Source: Myxococcaceae bacterium
GTDB taxonomy: Bacteria > Myxococcota > Myxococcia > Myxococcales > Myxococcaceae
Direction of reading: 5' to 3'
Assembly (NCBI GenBank): GCA_016926755.1
Contig: JAFGNZ010000252.1
Location: 1 to 41,250 of the forward strand
Length of the DNA stretch: 41,250 nt
Position 1 is the first letter of the stretch. Each line of letters begins with the position of its first letter. The notes beneath the pieces were generated by a model. The model was not told the DNA's origin and made no database searches. It saw only the letters and a list, made by a program, of their open reading frames with translations. Shown here piece by piece: positions 1 to 13,627 of this stretch. The translations under genes were made by a program, and so were the position numbers.

Positions 1-90
1 CGGGAGCCGCCGCGGGACAGCTCGGGCGCCTCCGGAGGAGGCTGTCGGGAGCCGCCGCGGGACAGCTCGGGCATCTCCGGCGGAGGCTGC
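1..90. repeat. 45-bp tandem repeat coding a 15-residue unit
   Basis: The string starting cgggagccgccgcgggacag begins at position 1 and again at 46, giving a 45-bp period that runs off the left edge. On the minus strand it codes a unit close to GSRQPPPExPELSRG in the tail of the FliG-like protein. Confidence 0.85.
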
Positions 91-1568
91 CGGGAGCCCG
101 CCCGAGAGGGCTCTCGTGTGGGAGGCGGGCCGATCCGGGCTCCGCCAGGATCCGGGGCGATGGGCGACTCCCGCCGGACGAGGGACTCCCGGGGGCTCAT
201 GGCCACGGACTCGCGCGGCTGCTGGCGGTGCTTGCGCGAGGCCTCGGGCGACTCGTCACCCAGCAGCTCCCGGAGGCTCGCCTCCACGGACTCGCGCGGC
301 TGCTGGCGGTGCTTGCGCGAGGCCTCGGGCGGCTCGTCACCCCCCAGAGGCTCCCGGGAGGAGAGCGCGCCGGCGCGGCGAGCCGCGCGCTCGGCCATGG
401 GATCCCGGGGATCCCTGCGCGCGCCGGGATCCGAGAAGTTGGCGCCCCCCACGGCGCCCGCACGCCGCGCCTCGCGCTCGGCCATCGCATCACGCCGGGG
501 AGCGGGCACCAGGACGCTGCTCGGGCGCGCCTCGGGCTGCGGGGGGATCCGGGCGGGAGGCACCTCGCGGTTGGGAGGCGCGCCGCGGCCCGGCGGCGGG
601 TTCAGCGCCGGGCGCTGCGGAGTGAGCCGCACCGGGCGCTCGATGAGGCCGCGAGCGGCGAGCCGCTCCAGATCCGCCACGATGTCGGCGCGGCCACCAT
701 CCGTCGTGCGGGAGACGGGCTTGGAGCGCTCGTCCCGGACCCACTTGGCCAGCAGGCTGCCGAACTCTCCGCGGTGCCGCTCGAGCATGCGCGCGGCGAA
801 CTCCGCGGACTGCGCCACGCAGGCGCGTGCCAGGCGCTGGGCGCCCGCGCTGCGGATGGCGAACGCCAGGTTCTTCAGGCCGTCATGTACCCCGAGCTGC
901 TCCTTGGCATCCTCCTCGGGCAGCTTGCGCGGGGCGTTGGCCTGGACGGCCTTGGCGGCCAGCTGCCTCATGTCCGGCGGCAACTGCGTGAAGATGGCCT
1001 CGCGCTGCTCCTCCGGCAGCCCCGCCAGCGCCGGCCCCAGCACCCGCGCGCCGAGCCGATCACACACGGTGTACAGCTCGCGCGGTGGCAGCTGGAGCAC
1101 GTCGGTGAACTTGAAGCTCACCTGGCCCCCCGCGCTGCGCGACAGCCGCTCCTCCAGCTTCCAGCGGATGATGTCCAGCACCTGCGGGCGGACCTCGCGG
1201 GTGAGCTTCACCGACCTCTGGGGCAGGTGGGCGCGCACCGCCTCGGCCAGCACCGAGGGCAGGGCGCGCAGCACCACCTCCGCCAGCGCGCCGCGCTCCC
1301 GCAGGATCAGCGCGGCCAGCTTCTCCGGCTCCGCGCTCCAGAGCTGGCCGCGCCGGTCCTTCACCAGCCGCTTGATCTCCTGAACCAGCAGGGGCAGCCG
1401 CTTCTCGCGCGGGATCTGGATGATCTCCTGCGCGCGGTGCCGGAGGACCTCTCCCTCGTCGTCGGCGAGGTGCTCGAGCGCCGCGACGCCCTCCTGACCG
1501 CCAAAGGTGACGGCGGTCAGCAGCAACATCGCCTGGCGTTTGTTGAGCGAGGTGAAGAATTGGTCCAA
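1..1568 (-). CDS. FliG-like protein in the SctK position of a type III secretion operon (3' end outside window)
   Basis: Open frame of 522 codons with no stop before the window edge, so the C-terminus is missing. An in-frame TGA lies two codons before the TTG start at 1568, which has a GAGGTGA ribosome site just upstream. Residues about 1-300 are helical and charged. One stretch (FTDVLQLPPRELY, then LPEEQREAIFTQLPPDM) resembles the FliG middle/C-terminal pattern of a phenylalanine-led LDDR-type helix followed by an EELREKIL helix. From about residue 350 the protein becomes a Pro/Arg/Ser/Glu-rich, probably disordered tail with 27-residue and 15-residue tandem repeats. It follows sctI and sctJ, where Yersinia-type operons carry sctK, a cytosolic sorting-platform protein. 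I infer a switch or sorting-platform role facing the cytoplasm. The FliG resemblance is by eye; the family is not certain. Confidence 0.6.
   Translation of the reverse strand, partial: MDQFFTSLNKRQAMLLLTAVTFGGQEGVAALEHLADDEGEVLRHRAQEIIQIPREKRLPLLVQEIKRLVKDRRGQLWSAEPEKLAALILRERGALAEVVLRALPSVLAEAVRAHLPQRSVKLTREVRPQVLDIIRWKLEERLSRSAGGQVSFKFTDVLQLPPRELYTVCDRLGARVLGPALAGLPEEQREAIFTQLPPDMRQLAAKAVQANAPRKLPEEDAKEQLGVHDGLKNLAFAIRSAGAQRLARACVAQSAEFAARMLERHRGEFGSLLAKWVRDERSKPVSRTTDGGRADIVADLERLAARGLIERPVRLTPQRPALNPPPGRGAPPNREVPPARIPPQPEARPSSVLVPAPRRDAMAEREARRAGAVGGANFSDPGARRDPRDPMAERAARRAGALSSREPLGGDEPPEASRKHRQQPRESVEASLRELLGDESPEASRKHRQQPRESVAMSPRESLVRRESPIAPDPGGARIGPPPTREPSRAGSRQPPPEMPELSRGGSRQPPPEAPELSRGGS
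203..342. repeat. Two 59-bp direct repeats, 81-bp period
   Basis: Positions 203-261 and 284-342 match except for one base (a at 251, g at 332). The 81-bp period is 27 codons, so the reading frame of the FliG-like protein is kept; the protein unit contains PEASRKHRQQPRESV. Confidence 0.9.
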
Positions 1569-1633
1569 CGGTCACCTCGCGGGCCTCAGGGCCCTGGGGT
1601 TCGATGCCAGGGGACTCGGGGTGGGCGCAAGCC

Positions 1634-2431
1634 TCAGCCCTGCCGCGGGCGGGCCCGCCCCGAGATGCCGCCAGAGCCGCCGCGCATGAGGACCCAGGCC
1701 GACAGGCCGATCATGCCCAGGACGAAGACGGCCACCACCGCGAGCATGATGCGGAACGTGCCGGCGCTGGCCGCCGTCATCTGCATGCCGAAGACGTCCT
1801 GGAGGCGGCTCTCCGGGTTGGTCTCCGCCGAGGGCGGCAGCCCGGGCGTCAGCAGCACGATGACCCGGTCCGGCTTGAGCTCCTGCACCGCCGAGGCGAC
1901 GAAGTGCTGCACGTCCTTCTCGGTGACGGGCGCCTTGCCCTCCAGGTTGGGCCGGTAGCGGATCATCACCGAGGCGGAGGGCAGCGGCTTGTTCTCCGGC
2001 TGGGTGAGATCGTTGTTCTCCGGGATGTTGACGATGACGTTGGACTCCAGCACGCCGTCGATCTTGTTCAGCGCGTTGGACACCTCGCCGCCCACCGCCT
2101 TGAGCATCATCGCGCGCTCCTCGGCGGCCGTGGGGACCATGCTGCCCTTGGCGAAGTGGTTGAAGCCCTTCTCCAGCGGGCGCGGCAGCGAGTTGGCGCG
2201 CAGCAGCTCCGCCGCCTGGGCCGCGTCCGCCTTGGGCACCGTGATGGTGAAGGACATCTCATCCCCCTCCCCCGAGGCCACCTTCGTGGCGCTGATGCCG
2301 TTCTTGCTCAGCAGGACGTAGATGTCGTTGGCGTCCTGCTCCGTCAGGGCGTGCTGCAGTTCGATGGAGCAGCCTGTCGCCAGCAGCAGGGACAGGAGCG
2401 GGAGGACGAGCGCGTACGGTCGGCGAGTCAT
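1634..2431 (-). CDS. sctJ: Type III secretion inner-membrane ring lipoprotein SctJ (YscJ/PrgK/FliF family)
   Basis: This 265-residue protein would form the periplasmic inner-membrane ring of a type III secretion base. It starts with a lipoprotein signal (lipobox LATGC, Cys21). The two ring-building domains follow: the first around residues 22-80 with the typical ANDIYVLLSKNGISA stretch, the second around 110-190 with NVIVNIPENND and PDRVIVLLTP. A transmembrane helix near residues 225-245 (MLAVVAVFVLGMIGLSAWVL) and a short basic tail complete the family layout. The ATG at 2431 was chosen because it places the lipoprotein signal at the N-terminus; an upstream in-frame start would bury it. It lies downstream of sctI and 65 bp upstream of the FliG-like gene. 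The family assignment is firm. Confidence 0.95.
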   Translation of the reverse strand: MTRRPYALVLPLLSLLLATGCSIELQHALTEQDANDIYVLLSKNGISATKVASGEGDEMSFTITVPKADAAQAAELLRANSLPRPLEKGFNHFAKGSMVPTAAEERAMMLKAVGGEVSNALNKIDGVLESNVIVNIPENNDLTQPENKPLPSASVMIRYRPNLEGKAPVTEKDVQHFVASAVQELKPDRVIVLLTPGLPPSAETNPESRLQDVFGMQMTAASAGTFRIMLAVVAVFVLGMIGLSAWVLMRGGSGGISGRARPRQG

Positions 2432-2491
2432 GTGCGGGCCTAGCTTAGCGGCGCGGCCGTCCCGTTCCAACAAGGGCCCCGGAAAACATGG

Positions 2492-2523
2492 AAGGGCGAC
2501 CCCTCTTCTGAGGGATCGCCCTT
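2492..2523 (-). terminator. Hairpin with short T tail between sctI and sctJ
   Basis: Arms 2492-2505 and 2510-2523 form a 14-bp stem with one G-U pair and a 4-base loop. On the minus strand it is followed by ccatgttttcc. It could act as a partial terminator or as an mRNA 3' stabiliser for sctI. Confidence 0.6.
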
Positions 2524-2555
2524 GGGGGCGCCGCCGGGGAGGCAGCCAGCCGGAA

Positions 2556-3116
2556 CTACACCTGGGTCTTGACGACGTCCTTGAGGCCGTTGGTGGCCTT
2601 CTCGACGACCTTGCTCGTCAGGTCCAGCTCCTGGGTGTACTTGTACATGGAGGCCTGGAGCGACAGCAGCTCGCCGTTGGAGAACTGCTTGCCGCTCACG
2701 CCGGCGTTGATGAGCTTCTCCAGGTTGAGCTGCCCCTTCTCCAGCGAGGTGACGACGCTGGTCACCATGTTGCTGGCCTTGCTCGTCTCCGGCTTGGCGT
2801 CCACGGGCGCCGCGGCGCGGGTCGTCACCTGCTCGCTGTGGGCGCCGTTGACCTTGTTGAGGGCCGCCTTCTCCGCCTTGTTGACGTGCTCGACGCTGCG
2901 GACCTGGTCCGCCTTCTGCGTCTGCTGGACCTGCTGAGCCGCCTGGGCCGCCTGCGTCGACTGGACCTGCTCGGCCCCGCCGGCCGCCTGGGCCTTGTTA
3001 GCGAGAACCCCGTCGAACTTCGAGGCTCCCTGCTTGTTCACCTGCTGCGCGCCCTGATCCTGCAGCTTCTGCTGCGCGATCTGTGCGGCCGAGACGCCTG
3101 CCATCGGACCCGCCAT
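2556..3116 (-). CDS. sctI: Type III secretion inner rod protein SctI
   Basis: Predicted 186-residue rod subunit, the periplasmic shaft between base and needle. The last 45 residues carry the SctI signature: LLSLQASMYKYTQELDLTSK followed by VVEKATNGLKDVVKTQV, the helix that packs into the rod. The first 140 residues are Gln/Ala-rich and low in complexity, longer than in the usual 80-120 residue rods. The ATG at 3116 has an ideal ribosome site (AAGGAGG, 8 bases upstream), which decides it over the ATG pair seven codons earlier. Its first 119 bp lie inside the 3' end of the sigma-factor frame, so translation is probably coupled. Placement just before sctJ agrees with other type III operons. Confidence 0.85.
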   Translation of the reverse strand: MAGPMAGVSAAQIAQQKLQDQGAQQVNKQGASKFDGVLANKAQAAGGAEQVQSTQAAQAAQQVQQTQKADQVRSVEHVNKAEKAALNKVNGAHSEQVTTRAAAPVDAKPETSKASNMVTSVVTSLEKGQLNLEKLINAGVSGKQFSNGELLSLQASMYKYTQELDLTSKVVEKATNGLKDVVKTQV

Positions 3117-3831
3117 GTGACTGCCTCCTTGCATCATCGGAGGAAGCGGGAGCTTCCTCGTCGTCCAAGAGTTCCTTGAGCCGCTCGATGGCCCGCGCAT
3201 GAAGCCGCGACGCCCAGCTCTTCGACTGCCCGATCTCCGACCCCGCCTCTTCCAGGGTCTTCCCGTGGAAGTAATACCCCTGCAGCAGCTGCCGCTCCTT
3301 CTCCGGGAGCTTCTCGATCGCCGCCCTCACCCGCCGCTTCAGCTGCTCCATCTCCAGCCGCTGATCCGCCGGCAGAGACTCGTCCGAATACCCCGCCGCG
3401 TCCGCCCCTTCCAGGCTGGTGGCGAACACCATCGCCAGGCCCGCGACCGCGTTGGAGATGTCATTGACATCATCGTCGAATGACCCCGCGCGGTTGCCTG
3501 CGCCCTGCTCGCGATCCGAAAGATTTCCAAGGTACGCGGAAGCGCGCTCGCCCACGAAGGCCGCCCGGGCATCCGCCCCGCGCAACACCCCCATCTTCCT
3601 CAGTCCGTCGAAGATGGCACCTTTAATGCGATAGTGGGCAAATGTAAGGAAATTGGTCCCTACCTTGGGATCAAACCGGTCCGCGGCCTCCAGCAGGCCA
3701 ATCTGGCCGTAGGCGACCAGCTCCTCGATCTCGAGTTGGGCGTTGAACTGCTTACGGACAGTCGCCGCCAGCGACCGCACGTAGGGGCCGTACTTTTCGA
3801 GAATCGCCTTCTTGTCGTCGCCAAAACCCAA
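2998..3831 (-). CDS. Sigma factor of the FliA/WhiG (sigma-28) type within the T3SS operon
   Basis: A 277-residue RNA polymerase sigma factor. Region 2 covers about residues 15-80 (ELVAYGQIGLLEAADRFD, TNFLTFAHYRIKGAIFDGLR), typical of FliA/WhiG. The middle is short and Asp/Ala-rich. Region 4 is about residues 170-225 (LPEKERQLLQGYYFHGKTLE, then a helix-turn-helix ending SRLHARAIERLKELL). Family members usually end there; this frame continues some 50 residues through the sctI ribosome site and into the sctI gene. The only start after the upstream stop is TTG at 3831, 6 bp after the preceding gene, with only a weak ribosome site. It probably directs transcription of the secretion genes. There is no flagellar gene in view. 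Confidence 0.9.
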   Translation of the reverse strand: MGFGDDKKAILEKYGPYVRSLAATVRKQFNAQLEIEELVAYGQIGLLEAADRFDPKVGTNFLTFAHYRIKGAIFDGLRKMGVLRGADARAAFVGERASAYLGNLSDREQGAGNRAGSFDDDVNDISNAVAGLAMVFATSLEGADAAGYSDESLPADQRLEMEQLKRRVRAAIEKLPEKERQLLQGYYFHGKTLEEAGSEIGQSKSWASRLHARAIERLKELLDDEEAPASSDDARRQSHGGSDGRRLGRTDRAAEAAGSGRAAGEQAGSLEVRRGSR

Positions 3832-3837
3832 GGCTGC

Positions 3838-4233
3838 TCACTCGGCCTTCGACCACAGCCGCTCGAGGACCTGGTTGAGCCGGGGGTCCTCCTGAAGTGC
3901 GTCCGCGATCTTGCCTGAAAGCGCGGAGGACTTCATGTGGAGCTTCTCCTTGAGGACCTCGGCGACGAGTTGACGCGTCGCCTCCTCCTTGTTCTTGAAG
4001 CCTCCTTGCTTGAGCTGCTTGGCAATGGCCATCGCCTGTGCCGCGATGGGGTCCAAGGGCTGGGCCCCCTGGACATTGGAAGAGCCCACCAGCCCCGAGG
4101 GGCCCACGAGGGACTCGGCCTTGTCCACCTTGGCCCCAAAGCCTGAACCGCCCACGGGGGCCTTGCCGGACGCACCTCTCGCGCCACCCGCCCGGCCCTT
4201 GCCACCCCCACGTCCGACTCCACCGACAGACAT
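3838..4233 (-). CDS. Small Gly-rich protein at the SctH position, function unknown
   Basis: A 131-residue protein, not recognised as a known family. Residues 1-60 are Gly/Ala/Ser/Lys-rich and probably disordered; residues 65-131 look helical (LDPIAAQAMAIAKQLKQGGF and a C-terminal helix ending RLNQVLERLWSKAE). The ATG at 4233 has AGGAGG seven bases upstream; a TTG two codons earlier is too close to that site. It lies 36 bp after the TPR gene and 6 bp before the sigma factor, so it is co-transcribed. In Yersinia this slot holds the secreted regulator SctH/YopR. Being next to a FliA-type sigma factor it might instead be an anti-sigma factor, but no FlgM pattern is evident. Both ideas are inference. 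Confidence 0.75.
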   Translation of the reverse strand: MSVGGVGRGGGKGRAGGARGASGKAPVGGSGFGAKVDKAESLVGPSGLVGSSNVQGAQPLDPIAAQAMAIAKQLKQGGFKNKEEATRQLVAEVLKEKLHMKSSALSGKIADALQEDPRLNQVLERLWSKAE

Positions 4234-4269
4234 CGCCAATCCTCCTCGGTCTCTCCAGCGCTCGACGCG

Positions 4270-4704
4270 CTACTTCTTGGGCGGAGGCAGCGCCCCCGCA
4301 TCCTTGGCTTCTACCAGGGCGCGCGCAAGCCGGGCCCCATCGCCCTCGGGCTCCAGCTCCATCGCCGCCTTCAGTTCCTTCATTGCTTCCGGGACCTTGC
4401 CCATGAACAGTAGCGCTTCTCCAGCGTGAGCGCGCGGCAAGGAGGAGCTCGGGGCCAGCCGCTGGGCCGCTCGGTAGGCCTGCAGGGCCTTGTCGTGGCG
4501 CCCCTGGGCGAACTCCAGCGCGCCGAGCGCCAGCTGCGGCACATCGCTCTTGGGCATCAGGGCCGCGGCCCCGGTGAAGATGTCCTTGGCCTTGTCGAAC
4601 CGGCCCATGTCCAGCCAGATGTAGCCAGCCTCCAGCAGGATCATCGCCTGCTGCTTGGCGACGGGAACCAGGCTGCCAGCAATCTCCGAAGCAGACTCCG
4701 CCAT
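4270..4704 (-). CDS. TPR protein, candidate SctG-like needle chaperone
   Basis: A 144-residue protein made of about three tetratricopeptide repeats, recognisable by the A/G/Y-spaced helix pairs: AGYIWLDMGRFDKAKDIFTG, then LGALEFAQGRHDKALQAYRA, then AGEALLFMGKVPEAMKELKA. There is no signal peptide, so it is cytosolic. The ATG at 4704 has GGAG upstream. It sits directly after the needle-like gene and before the Gly-rich gene. In Yersinia-type systems the TPR protein SctG together with small SctE holds the needle subunit before secretion; the same E-F-G order here supports that role. Another T3SS chaperone role is possible. Confidence 0.8.
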   Translation of the reverse strand: MAESASEIAGSLVPVAKQQAMILLEAGYIWLDMGRFDKAKDIFTGAAALMPKSDVPQLALGALEFAQGRHDKALQAYRAAQRLAPSSSLPRAHAGEALLFMGKVPEAMKELKAAMELEPEGDGARLARALVEAKDAGALPPPKK

Positions 4705-4742
4705 GAACCGCGCTCTCCTTTGCAAGGGCCCGGAAGGAAGAA

Positions 4743-4762
4743 GGGCGGCATGAGAGCCGCCC
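4743..4762 (-). terminator. Hairpin with T-rich tail after the needle-like gene
   Basis: Arms 4743-4749 and 4756-4762 form a 7-bp all-GC stem (gggcggc/gccgccc) with a 6-base loop. On the minus strand it is followed by ttcttccttcc. It lies between the needle-like gene (stop at 4805) and the TPR gene (start at 4704), and could terminate part of the transcripts. Confidence 0.6.
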
Positions 4763-4804
4763 CTCGCCCTGGATCGAGCTCGCCCGCCAACAGCTTAGCG
4801 CGGA

Positions 4805-5383
4805 TTAGCGGATGTTGCTGATGGCGTTCTTCGCCGTCTCGTGACGCTGCTTCATCACGTTGGAGACCGCCTGGTACTTCTGGGACTCGGTCTGCATGGC
4901 CGACTGCAGCTTCAGGAGGTTCTTCTGCTCCTGGAACATGCTGGCCAGCTCACCGTTGAACTCGGTGCCCGGAGCGCCGTTGTTGCCGCCCAGGAAGTTG
5001 GGGCCGCCAGCGGAGCCGGTGCCCACGCCCGGGATGCCCGCGGTGCCCGGAGCGCCCACGGTGGTGCTCACGGAGGGCACGCCCACGGTGGCCACGGCCC
5101 CCGAGCCCGCGCTGCCGCCGCCGCCCGCGCCCGGCAGGATCGCCGTGTACGGAGTGGAGGCAGAGCCCGCCGCGCCCGACGCGGTGAGGCTCAGCGAGGA
5201 GACCGCCGCCGAGACGATGCCGCCGCCGAAGGCGCCAGTGGCCAGGCCCAGGCCCGTGGACACCGCGCCCGCCGCGTTGTTCACGCCCGCCTGAACGCGC
5301 GCGCCGAAGCTGGTGTCCGGGGTCTGCCGACCCACCGAGAGGTTGGTGGACAACCGAGGCCCCATCAATCCGTCGACCTTCAT
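4805..5383 (-). CDS. Needle-like (SctF-like) secreted T3SS protein with long Gly/Ala-rich N-terminus
   Basis: A 192-residue protein. Residues 1-140 are rich in Gly, Ala, Ser, Thr and Val with no signal peptide. The last 50 residues form a long helix; its final part (SNVMKQRHETAKNAISNIR) follows the needle pattern seen in PrgI/YscF-type subunits: SN, a Lys, then an AI-x-x-x-R end. Classical needles are only about 80 residues. The ATG at 5383 has a strong ribosome site, AAGGAG, eight bases upstream. It lies between a small helical gene and a TPR gene, matching the order SctE-SctF-SctG, and is followed by a hairpin. I infer needle or filament subunit; a rod-like or translocon role cannot be excluded. 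Confidence 0.7.
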   Translation of the reverse strand: MKVDGLMGPRLSTNLSVGRQTPDTSFGARVQAGVNNAAGAVSTGLGLATGAFGGGIVSAAVSSLSLTASGAAGSASTPYTAILPGAGGGGSAGSGAVATVGVPSVSTTVGAPGTAGIPGVGTGSAGGPNFLGGNNGAPGTEFNGELASMFQEQKNLLKLQSAMQTESQKYQAVSNVMKQRHETAKNAISNIR

Positions 5384-5451
5384 TTTGCTCTCCTTCTGCG
5401 TGCAGAACTTCGAAAGGTTCGAGCCCGGCCAGCCCGGCGCTCTCACTGAAA

Positions 5452-5459
5452 TTATCGCC
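5452..5459 (-). promoter_or_regulatory. Possible sigma-28-type -10 element upstream of the needle-like gene
   Basis: The minus strand reads GGCGATAA, one base off the enterobacterial FliA -10 element GCCGATAA, about 70 bp before the needle-like ATG. A gcaa at the expected 15-base spacing matches the TAAA element at only two of four bases. Weak; listed because the operon encodes a FliA-type sigma factor. Confidence 0.2.
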
Positions 5460-5541
5460 GATCACGGGCCTGGGTTGCCTCAGGCCCCGAGATTCCAGAA
5501 TCCTCAAAATCCGAGCCCAGCAAATCCAGACCCTTGCGAGG

Positions 5542-5820
5542 CTAGCGGCGCCCCTTGCTTCCCTTGGATTCCTCGATCAGGCGCTCGCGGGTCTCCAAGA
5601 GGATGCCGAGCAGCTCTTCGGCGCTGGCCAGGGCGGCCTGGACCTTCTTGCCCTGATCCACCTTGGGGCCCTTGAGGGCCTCCAGGCCCTGCTTGATGGG
5701 GTTGAAGAGCGCCTGGATCTCCTCGGCGGAGGCGCGCTCGATGAAGGACTCGATGGCCGGAAAAGAGGGAACGGGGAGCGGCTCGACGGGTGCGGCTTCC
5801 TGCTGCTTGGGGGGAGGCAT
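5542..5820 (-). CDS. Small helical protein, candidate SctE-like needle co-chaperone
   Basis: A 92-residue protein, first gene of the T3SS operon in this window. Residues 1-20 are Pro/Gln/Glu-rich; residues 22-85 look like two amphipathic helices (AIESFIERASAEEIQALFN, then ALASAEELLGILLETRERL), ending in a basic tail. There is no signal peptide. Size and two-helix form suit SctE-type chaperones, and position before the needle-like and TPR genes matches yscE-F-G. No diagnostic motif was recognised, so the role rests on context. The ATG at 5820 has an AGGAG about 12 bases upstream, rather far for a ribosome site. A 158-bp gap separates it from the next gene. Confidence 0.7.
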   Translation of the reverse strand: MPPPKQQEAAPVEPLPVPSFPAIESFIERASAEEIQALFNPIKQGLEALKGPKVDQGKKVQAALASAEELLGILLETRERLIEESKGSKGRR

Positions 5821-5843
5821 CGTGGGGAGGGTCTCCTGTCAGG

Positions 5844-5865
5844 GCGCCGCCCGAGCGGGCGGCGC
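5844..5865 (-). other. GC hairpin in the T3SS operon leader
   Basis: A perfect 9-bp stem (5844-5852 with 5857-5865, loop gagc) sits 24-45 bp upstream of the first T3SS start codon. No T tract follows on either strand, so a leader structure affecting translation or RNA stability is more likely than a terminator. Confidence 0.45.
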
Positions 5866-6083
5866 GATGCGAGCGCAGGGACGCTAGGAGAAAACTCCCT
5901 CCATGTTCAAGACGGCTGTCAGGCCCGAGGCGACAACGAGGCGCCGCGGTGCCGGCCGCCCAGCGAGCATGCACGCGGCGCTCCCCCGGATGCGCTGTTC
6001 CGTTCCACGAGCGCACCTAGCTTCTTCCTAGCGGAGGAGCCGCACCGCTCCCACCGCACTCACCAACCTCAGGGGAGACTTCC

Positions 6084-6671
6084 ATGAAGAAGCTGTTTGG
6101 GCTGTTCCTGTCCGTGGCGCTGATGGGCTCTGGAGTGGCGCTGGCGGGCGATGAAGGAAAGAAGAAGGAGCAACAGACGCAGAGCCAGTCCGGAGCCGCG
6201 GGGCAGGACATCGGCGGCTCGGGCCAGACCGGCCAGATGGGGATGGACCCGCAGCTGAGCGGCACCCAGCTCACGGGCCGCGTGGTGAAGAGCGAGAAGA
6301 AGATGATCTACCTCGAGCACGCGGGCGCCATCGTGCCGCTGAAGATCGACAAGAACACGCAGTTCATGGATCCGGCCATCAAGCGCCCCCAGGACATCAA
6401 GCCGGGCGAGGAGATCCGCGCCTCCTTCGAGGTGCGGAAGACCGACAACGTCGCCACGAGCATCCAGAAGGCCGAAGGCATGGGAGGCAGCGGGAAGGAC
6501 GTGATGTCGCCCGACTCGAGCATCAACCAGCCGCCGGACACCACCCTGCCTCCGTCCGGTGAGGGCACCGGCGGCAGCGGCAATCTGGACACGGACATCC
6601 CCCAGGACACCGGCTCCGAGATGGACTCGGACGTGAACGCCGACCAGGACAGCACCAGCGGCGACCGCTGA
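6084..6671 (+). CDS. Exported small protein with an OB/DUF5666-like core, function unknown
   Basis: A 195-residue protein with a Sec signal peptide (basic MKK, hydrophobic core, cleavage near ALAG at residue 22). After a Gln/Gly-rich linker, residues about 60-130 form a small beta-rich module: LTGRVVKSEKKMIYLEHAG, a strand ending PLKIDKNTQFMD, and PGEEIRASFEVRKTDNVATS. This alternation resembles small OB-like periplasmic domains such as DUF5666. The C-terminal 65 residues are acidic and Gly/Ser/Asp-rich. The ATG at 6084 has GGGGAG eight bases upstream. It is monocistronic, divergent from the T3SS operon, and ended by a strong terminator. No function is assigned. Confidence 0.8.
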   Translation: MKKLFGLFLSVALMGSGVALAGDEGKKKEQQTQSQSGAAGQDIGGSGQTGQMGMDPQLSGTQLTGRVVKSEKKMIYLEHAGAIVPLKIDKNTQFMDPAIKRPQDIKPGEEIRASFEVRKTDNVATSIQKAEGMGGSGKDVMSPDSSINQPPDTTLPPSGEGTGGSGNLDTDIPQDTGSEMDSDVNADQDSTSGDR

Positions 6672-11969: not shown

Positions 11970-13627
11970 GCCCCCGCTCGCTCGCCACGGCCGCGGTGCT
12001 CGCCGCGGCGCTGACGTCACTCCCGGCGGCCGCCCAGTCGCGGCCGGACGAGGACTCCCTGTTCGGCGGCGGGCAGCAGGAGGCGCCCCCCTCCGCCCAG
12101 CAGAGTCCCCAGGCTCCCTCCGAGAGCCCCCCACCCTCCTCCCGCCCGAGCGAGGACAGCCTGTTCGGCAGCCCGTCCGCGGGCGAGGCGGCCTTGGAGG
12201 CCACGCCCCAGGCGCCCGGCGCGGTCAACCCCAGCGCCCCGCCCGCGCAGCCCCCCGCCGTGGAGCAGGCCGGCCGCGAGGAGACGCGGGACGAGCAGGC
12301 GCTCAGCGGCCCCTCGCTGCAGGAGGCCTTCGGCTCCGAGGAGCACGCCGAGGATCCGCTGAAGATCGGCGGCCAGTTCTACCTGCGCGCCGTCGCCCAG
12401 GGGAATGAGGGCGTCTCCTTTGGCAGCACCTCCTTCTCCGCCCCCACGCTGGTGGATGGCTACTTCGACGCTCGCCCCACCGACAGGCTGCGCGGCATGG
12501 TGGTGGGCCGGCTGAGCTTCGATCCCACCCTGGGCTCCCAGAGCACGGCGGGCTTCGGCGCCGCTCAGGCCGATGGCACCTCCACGCCGGGCGCCTCTCG
12601 GCCCAACCCCCGCGTCCTGCTGGACCAGGCCTGGCTGCGCTTCGACATCGAGCGCACCGTGTTCGTCACCGCCGGCAAGCAGCACGTCAAGTGGGGCACC
12701 TCGCGCTTCTGGAACCCCACCGACTTCCTGTCCCCCCAGCGCAAGGATCCGCTGGCCGTCTTCGACGCGCGCACCGGCGCCTCCATGCTCAAGCTCCACG
12801 TCCCCTGGGAGGCCACGGGGTGGAACTTCTACGGCATCGCCATGCTGGACAACGCCGGGCCCGCCTCCACGCTGGGCCGCATCGGCGGCGCCGTCCGCGC
12901 CGAGGTGGTGCTGGGCGAGGCGGAGCTGGGTGCCAGCGCCGTGCTCCAGCGCGAGCGCAAGCCCCGCTTCGGGCTCGATCTCTCCTCCGCGCTCGGGCCG
13001 CTGGATGTCTACGCCGAGGCGGCCCTCAAGTCGGGCTCGGACACCCCGCTCTACCGGCTGCCCCAGGGCGTGTCGCTCCTGGAGTTGCTCGAGCAGTCCC
13101 AGGGCATCGAGATCCGCACCCTGGAGGATCTGCGCAAGCTGCCCGTGGAGAGCTACTTCCCGGACGGCCTCACCCCGCAGATCTCCGGCGGCGCCACCTA
13201 CACCTTCGCCTACAACGAGAGCGACACCGCCACCGTGGGCGTCGAGTACTTCTACAACTCGACGGGCTACTCCGAGGCCTACGCCTACCCCTACCTGATC
13301 GCCCAGGGCGCCTATCAGCCGTTCTACGTGGGCAAGCACTACGGCGCCTTCTATGCCGTGCTCGTGGGGCCGGGCTCCTGGGAGAAGACGTCCTTCATCC
13401 TGTCCAACCTCGGCAACCTCTCGGACATGTCCTTCACCAGCCGGCTGGACGTGCTCCACCGCGCGCTCTCGTACCTGAGCATCGAGGCCTACGTCGCCGC
13501 CAACTACGGCAACAAGGGCGGCGAGTTCCGCTTCGCTCTGGACTCCGGGCCGTTCCAGGTCAACGGCCGGCCCCTGCTGCCCGCCCCCACCGTGCAGGTG
13601 GGCGGCGGCCTGCGCATCAACCTCTGA
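11966..13627 (+). CDS. Outer-membrane beta-barrel (DUF1302/porin-like) protein of the ABC-LolA operon
   Basis: A 553-residue protein with a signal peptide (cleavage near AAAQ, residue 24). Residues 25-120 are Pro/Ser/Glu-rich and contain one motif twice, SRPDEDSLFG at 25-34 and SRPSEDSLFG at 59-68. From about residue 130 the sequence alternates polar and aromatic residues as in outer-membrane barrels, starting IGGQFYLRAVAQ, with a conserved-looking AGKQHVKWGTSRFWNPTDF segment like DUF1302/alginate-export-type porins, and ending in a strand VQVGGGLRINL. The ATG overlaps the LolA-like stop by four bases, so both are translated together. Probable role: outer-membrane endpoint of the ABC export line. 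Confidence 0.85.
   Translation: MSPRSLATAAVLAAALTSLPAAAQSRPDEDSLFGGGQQEAPPSAQQSPQAPSESPPPSSRPSEDSLFGSPSAGEAALEATPQAPGAVNPSAPPAQPPAVEQAGREETRDEQALSGPSLQEAFGSEEHAEDPLKIGGQFYLRAVAQGNEGVSFGSTSFSAPTLVDGYFDARPTDRLRGMVVGRLSFDPTLGSQSTAGFGAAQADGTSTPGASRPNPRVLLDQAWLRFDIERTVFVTAGKQHVKWGTSRFWNPTDFLSPQRKDPLAVFDARTGASMLKLHVPWEATGWNFYGIAMLDNAGPASTLGRIGGAVRAEVVLGEAELGASAVLQRERKPRFGLDLSSALGPLDVYAEAALKSGSDTPLYRLPQGVSLLELLEQSQGIEIRTLEDLRKLPVESYFPDGLTPQISGGATYTFAYNESDTATVGVEYFYNSTGYSEAYAYPYLIAQGAYQPFYVGKHYGAFYAVLVGPGSWEKTSFILSNLGNLSDMSFTSRLDVLHRALSYLSIEAYVAANYGNKGGEFRFALDSGPFQVNGRPLLPAPTVQVGGGLRINL

Follow-up and report, generated by a model that had tools for sequence, protein, structure and literature searches.

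A myxobacterial type III secretion operon with a probable SctE-SctF-SctG needle module and a FliG homologue in the SctK slot

The stretch of DNA that we analysed (the window; 41,250 nucleotides) is contig JAFGNZ010000252.1 of the Myxococcaceae bacterium assembly GCA_016926755.1, and forms one complete contig, C350, of a draft genome of 9.6 Mb in 409 contigs. Its left end holds eight genes of a type III secretion system (T3SS). All eight are open and succeed one another on the minus strand, running from position 5820 to the left contig end in the order E, F, G, H, sigma factor, SctI, SctJ and FliG-like protein (Table 1). By gene content and gene count, the locus is the myxobacterial T3SS*, which in Myxococcus xanthus comprises MXAN_2434-2464. 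We consider it probable that the window carries the proximal half of the main T3SS* operon, with a SctE-SctF-SctG module, a FliG homologue and other flagellar parts. The M. xanthus system has been called needleless (PMC12075869), and the 'Myxo' group of non-flagellar T3SS (NF-T3SS) was described without SctF and FliG (Abby and Rocha 2012; PMC3459982). As far as sequence can tell, T3SS* is not needleless at the level of its genes, and the published absence of SctF and FliG looks wrong. Gene F is likely to correspond to MXAN_2434, judging from gene counts and from the identification of MXAN_2445 as sctQ (PMC10196010).

The operon is a real observation and not due to chance. An orthologue of the FliG-like gene is present in 93 of 145 Myxococcales genomes, and nearly all of the approximately 20 relatives' loci that we read across the region keep the order E-F-G-H-sigma-I-J-FliG. 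The same block occurs in Hyalangium versicolor (L013) and in approximately 20 other myxobacterial genomes. In two genomes of another Myxococcota family (G194 and G192), E, F, G, sigma, I, J and FliG were recovered in unchanged order, with E-values of 7e-6 and 9e-6 for E, 5e-29 and 4e-35 for F, about 1e-78 for sigma, and about 1e-37 and 1e-39 for FliG. H was the only gene of the block not recovered there, and its slot in G194 holds an unrelated-looking protein. Every one of the eight genes is under purifying selection, and the block is therefore not a relic.

Evidence on gene F comes from searches in two directions. A profile built from the C-terminal 52 residues of F-family members, together with short paralogues found downstream in relatives (A1), was compared with 177,635 PDB sequences and gave one significant match, 7y6c_F, the EsaG needle protein (E-value 4e-6; the runner-up has 0.1). 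PDB entry 7Y6C is the EscE-EsaG33-73-EsaH crystal structure, in which a needle protein is bound to its two co-chaperones (PMC9426511). The depositor gave this chain the name of a co-chaperone, yet its 43 residues are those of EsaG, with V61, K62, M64 and M65 in register. Separate profiles of the short and of the long proteins also rank 7y6c_F first (9.8e-5 and 0.072, respectively). In the opposite direction, we ran the Pfam needle model, PF09392, across 91 whole genomes, 68 of which combine a listed match with a FliG-like gene. In 50 of these 68, no more than 25 kb separates the genome's best match from the FliG-like gene, and in 39 that match is gene F itself; in all 10 tabulated genomes of one or two contigs, it is at F. 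Taken individually, the scores are mostly under the curated cut-off, so that the strength of this evidence resides in location; the only copies that pass are two tandem copies in one genome (G085). PF09392 is also the commonest Pfam match among members of the F family (9 of 23). These results support F as an SctF homologue, as the first-pass annotation of this DNA had proposed, and F may form a needle by polymerisation. Because the window's F misses the curated cut-off, we call it an SctF-like homologue rather than a canonical member of the family.

Relatives encode additional, needle-sized F paralogues of 72-77 residues, in tandem downstream of sctU. A comparison by hhalign clearly relates the short family to the long one (3e-18). 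The tandem short genes differ little from each other, with five copies in G079, as might be expected for an abundant filament subunit. Needle-like segments are found in the window's own genome, too, on contigs C97, C151, C56 and C259. We also considered whether F could be a second SctI, and rejected this idea (hhalign to SctI: 0.3% for the short and 16% for the long proteins).

A number of observations weigh against reading F as a needle protein. On its own, the window's F matches no Pfam family and falls under all curated Pfam and NCBIfam cut-offs (PF09392, TIGR02105), and the single PF09392 match somewhere in its own genome has an E-value of 0.86. As a single sequence, F also found nothing in the PDB with phmmer; profiles alone succeeded, and the one built from long proteins only is weak on its own. 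The protein has 192 residues versus approximately 80, in two helices, in needles, and the glycine-rich hydrophobic extension that precedes its needle-like C-terminus is unlike known needles. Sixteen of the 91 genomes, some of them complete (e.g., G075 and G079), have no PF09392 match at an E-value of 1 or below. Similar C-terminal segments occur on other proteins, including a NolX-like one; the segment could therefore mark exported substrates generally. Finally, the open-access literature reports no needle for M. xanthus; an electron cryo-tomography study of this organism, with 95 tomograms, targeted a different, hat-like structure (PMC9380563).

These points bear on two alternatives. In the first, the long F is a cap, tip, adaptor or membrane-inserting translocator that uses a needle C-terminus for chaperoning and docking, and the short paralogues are the real needle. 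We give this some credence without favouring it. The short proteins have the length of a needle and up to five near-identical copies, and they surpass the long F in the EsaG match when each is used alone; the long F carries a conserved hydrophobic glycine-rich segment, and the NolX-like protein likewise ends in a needle-like segment. However, it is the long F that sits in the E-F-G slot, in a compact second system and in distant families, whereas the short copies were encountered only within Myxococcaceae loci, and PF09392 matches the long F best in most genomes. In the second alternative, E, F and G are not needle parts at all, and the shared segment is a helix common to export substrates in general; T3SS* would be a needleless basal body that, as published, serves the Kil pilus only by moving proteins across the inner membrane. 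The lack of a secretin or a canonical tip (PMC12075869, PMC3459982), the presence of the segment on several other proteins and the failure of the window's F to reach any curated cut-off speak for this view. Nonetheless, we think it unlikely: the PDB match is specific to the needle in an E-F-G complex rather than to helices generally, the gene order is that of a needle module, and a curated needle model singles out F in genomes of 9-13 Mb.

The NolX-like protein is a 355-residue product of contig C56 of the window's own genome (L084:5893-6960), with a NolX/HrpF-type translocator-like domain (1.7e-4, under the cut-off) and a needle-like C-terminus; its gene is followed by a tetratricopeptide repeat (TPR) gene. 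From its sequence, it is a possible tip- or translocon-like part.

Two proteins, E and G, flank F. G matches LcrH_SycD (4.8e-13), TPR_2 (1.3e-12), SctY (2.4e-6) and CdsG (9.7e-5), and the adjacency of G and F is conserved in relatives and in G194 and G192. It is a TPR protein of the T3SS-chaperone type and a candidate SctG that would bind the needle C-terminus. E has no relative by sequence in Pfam or PDB profile searches. Its AlphaFold2 (AF2) model (mean predicted local distance difference test score, pLDDT, 83) is a short helix followed by a hairpin, and a VIA-align comparison places EscE (7y6b_A) at rank 4 (Z 6.4; 2.0 A over 63 of 72 residues, the lowest root-mean-square deviation listed). 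Generic, unrelated hairpins tie with EscE in score, and Foldseek gave no significant match for the model. The fold of E is therefore consistent with the earlier reading of E as SctE but is not decisive.

The first-pass annotation had placed a FliG-like protein in the SctK slot, and had noted that a non-platform fold of this partial gene would speak against it. Both sequence and predicted fold agree with FliG. The FliG_C match (6.2e-8) passes the Pfam cut-off with 33.3 bits against 23.3, and all six PDB matches of the family profile (A5) are FliG, the best at 1.8e-4, spanning both ARM domains. For residues 73-314 of the AF2 model (pLDDT 84), the 13 best rows of the VIA-align comparison are FliG (Z 9.4-6.9), with large overall deviations because domain orientations differ. 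Row 14 is PscK, an SctK protein (Z 5.4; 3.8 A over 114 residues), and unrelated rows reach at most 3.8. Sequence, PDB profile and predicted fold together support the protein in the K slot as a FliG homologue. The EHPQ motif that binds FliM is not conserved, E-r-g-a standing in its place in the alignment to 1lkv, and the protein is therefore a FliG homologue and not a flagellar FliG. Since the window's gene is the sole FliG_C match in its own genome, no flagellum is expected. One could instead regard the protein as a divergent SctK that retains nothing ancestral, given its slot and the fact that PscK is the first structural match other than FliG. With the FliG_C cut-off passed, every PDB profile match a FliG across both ARM domains, and FliO and FliK present as well, we judge this very improbable.

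Further flagellar parts appear in the distal half of the operon. Because the window is the whole of contig C350, the left flank and this distal half are absent from it; in relatives with longer contigs, the genes run E, F, G, H, sigma, I, J, FliG, L, N, O, P, Q, FliO, R, S, T, U. Thus, of the components for which inspection of the left flank had been suggested, L, N, Q, R, S, T and U are found, with sctV further on, and the proposed colinearity with yscE to yscK extends well beyond K. The reference orders are the ysc genes E to U and, for flagella, fliF-G-H-I-J-K-M/N-O-P-Q-R-flhB. With its FliO and FliK, the order in the relatives therefore agrees with the ysc alphabet and, from J onwards, with the flagellar order. 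Pfam matches in these downstream genes include FliO (1.1e-10) and a YscO-like family (2e-45). The P slot carries a FliK hook-length domain (1.2e-6, just short of the cut-off), FliH (1.4e-17) ranks ahead of SctL (3.5e-8) in the L slot, and a gene near sctV has FHA/YscD cytoplasmic domains. The flagellar traits pointed out earlier, a sigma factor and a FliG-like protein, are hence joined by FliO, FliK and a FliH-type SctL. Injectisomes had been regarded as having lost FliG, FliO and FliK.

Beyond sctU, relatives have an FlhB C-terminal fragment, TPR genes, a DUF1521 protein, the tandem short needle-like genes and then sctV. The fragment is a separate, FlhX-like gene of 93 residues for the FlhB/SctU C-terminus, directly 3' of sctU (L049:15944-16225 and relatives). 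The DUF1521 protein (9e-13; L047:18147-19340 in G079) lies inside the T3SS* locus and adjoins the short needle array; the DUF1521 domain is known from rhizobial T3SS effectors. In the window's own genome, sctV of this system is divided between contigs C89 and C45. A second, compact T3SS on contig C259 (L008:10206-14041) has an F-like gene of its own, immediately followed by sctI and sctJ, and also encodes a FliG-like protein that is short and degenerate (12284-12838).

The remaining genes of the window's block are SctJ, SctI, the sigma factor and H. SctI and SctJ had been called certain. SctJ is indeed strong (YscJ_FliF 1.6e-21, TIGR02544 1.8e-39). SctI is recognisable from its slot and motif and has orthologues in 24 open reading frames (ORFs), but its PF17001 (T3SS_basalb_I) match is weak (0.0091; 16.9 bits versus a cut-off of 32.4). 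A solitary second SctI gene on contig C237 (L010:11618-12085) has 85% DNA identity to the window's and no other T3SS gene nearby. The closest family of the sigma factor is, as stated earlier, FliA_WhiG (TIGR02479, 4.6e-33), yet its 114.8 bits fall short of the curated cut-off of 189.6. In Pfam it has Sigma70_r2 and r4 and no region-3 match. The gene keeps its operon slot at phylum depth (G194 and G192), and its 3' end overlaps sctI by 116 nucleotides in a different frame (2998-3113); similar overlaps are seen in Hyalangium versicolor and in a distant metagenome-assembled genome.

H occupies the expected position for SctH without homology to it: profile searches found no Pfam or PDB relative. 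The family (A4) has a conserved helical C-terminus ending in DPRLNQxLERLW. By eye, H first suggested an anti-sigma factor akin to FlgM, which the T3SS would export as a flagellum-style checkpoint on the FliA-like sigma. In all relatives that were read, H immediately precedes the sigma gene, and H and G are the most constrained genes of the block. However, hhalign gives the FlgM comparison a probability of 4%, and the Pfam FlgM model finds nothing at H, so that we consider this role doubtful and very unlikely.

Upstream of gene E, the divergent intergenic region 5821-6083 separates it from a conserved plus-strand gene (6084-6671) and contains the conserved blocks AAAACCTAGGTGCGC and TTTTCnCCTAGCGT. 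Sigma-28 or sigma-54 consensus sequences sought in this region were no better than in shuffles, and an Rfam search gave no match.

Table 1. Features of the T3SS* operon in the window
Feature	Coordinates	Strand	Basis
E, SctE candidate (needle co-chaperone), 92-residue helical protein	5542..5820	-	position; orthologous ORF at same position in 18 other loci; AF2 model
F, SctF-like, 192 residues	4805..5383	-	PDB profile to EsaG needle; PF09392 location in relatives
Needle-like C-terminal 52 residues of F	4805-4963	-	F-family profile
G, SctG / class II-type chaperone candidate, 144-residue TPR protein	4270..4704	-	LcrH_SycD 4.8e-13; adjacency to F
H slot, 131-residue Gly-rich protein	3838..4233	-	position; family A4
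FliA/WhiG-like sigma factor	2998..3831	-	TIGR02479 4.6e-33; Sigma70_r2 and r4
SctI, inner rod	2556..3113	-	T3SS_basalb_I 0.0091; orthologues in 24 ORFs
SctJ, inner-ring lipoprotein, FliF homologue	1634..2431	-	YscJ_FliF 1.6e-21; TIGR02544 1.8e-39
FliG-like switch/adaptor protein, SctK slot, Pro-rich tail; gene cut by contig end	3..1568	-	FliG_C 6.2e-8

A check for secretins in five genomes (G079, G118, G104, G059 and G075) found none in the T3SS* locus, the secretin genes being at least 70 kb from the FliG-like gene; in the window's own draft, they are on contigs other than that of the operon. Published work describes co-recruitment of T3SS* and Kil (PMC12075869), and outer-membrane passage might possibly use the Tad/Kil secretin.

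These components suggest how the system could work. Until F is exported, G, as its TPR chaperone, and the hairpin protein E would keep hold of its C-terminal helix. Once outside, F would form a polymer on the SctI rod and the SctJ ring, together with the tandem paralogues of 72-77 residues in genomes that have them. FliG in the SctK slot may connect the rings of the inner membrane with the platform protein SctQ, and the FliA-like sigma factor may transcribe later T3SS genes. The system keeps ancestral flagellar parts (FliG, FliO, FliK, FliH-type SctL) in the flagellar order and combines them with those of an injectisome, and is therefore probably an intermediate between the two machines. A more far-reaching idea is that T3SS* is a living intermediate of this kind in which several SctF-like proteins build a real needle, FliG anchors it instead of SctK, a FliA-like sigma of its own exerts control, and a Tad/Kil secretin gives passage to prey. 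We offer this full scenario only tentatively, as one that is somewhat unlikely to hold in all its parts.

In the accepted evolutionary account, the earliest branch of injectisomes is without FliG and has lost its needle, and in the predation model the tips of Kil pili take the place of the needle that is missing. Should F be a needle subunit, and should FliG have been retained, then both need to change. The FliG-like protein, whose structural matches are FliG first and SctK second, could link the flagellar and injectisome adaptors. The genes concerned are named, conserved and deletable in a predator that is a laboratory standard.

We conclude by comparing the locus to known systems. Like the M. 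xanthus T3SS* and the 'Myxo' NF-T3SS, it has apparatus genes, no secretin in the locus and conservation in Myxococcaceae; unlike the published Myxo NF-T3SS, it has SctF and FliG homologues, plus FliO and FliK. With EscE-EsaG-EsaH and YscE-F-G, it shares the gene order, the needle C-terminal helix and candidates for a TPR partner and a hairpin partner. It differs from them in the 192 residues of F with their glycine-rich hydrophobic N-terminus, in an E without sequence similarity to SctE, and in the tandem short paralogues that relatives hold elsewhere in the locus. As in the flagellar operon from fliF to flhB, FliG, FliH-type, FliK and FliO proteins stand in corresponding positions; however, SctI, SctJ and the needle module replace FliE, FliF and the rod and hook genes. 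The protein in the K slot resembles SctK (PscK) in operon position and in a structural match, whereas its sequence and its better structural matches point to FliG.

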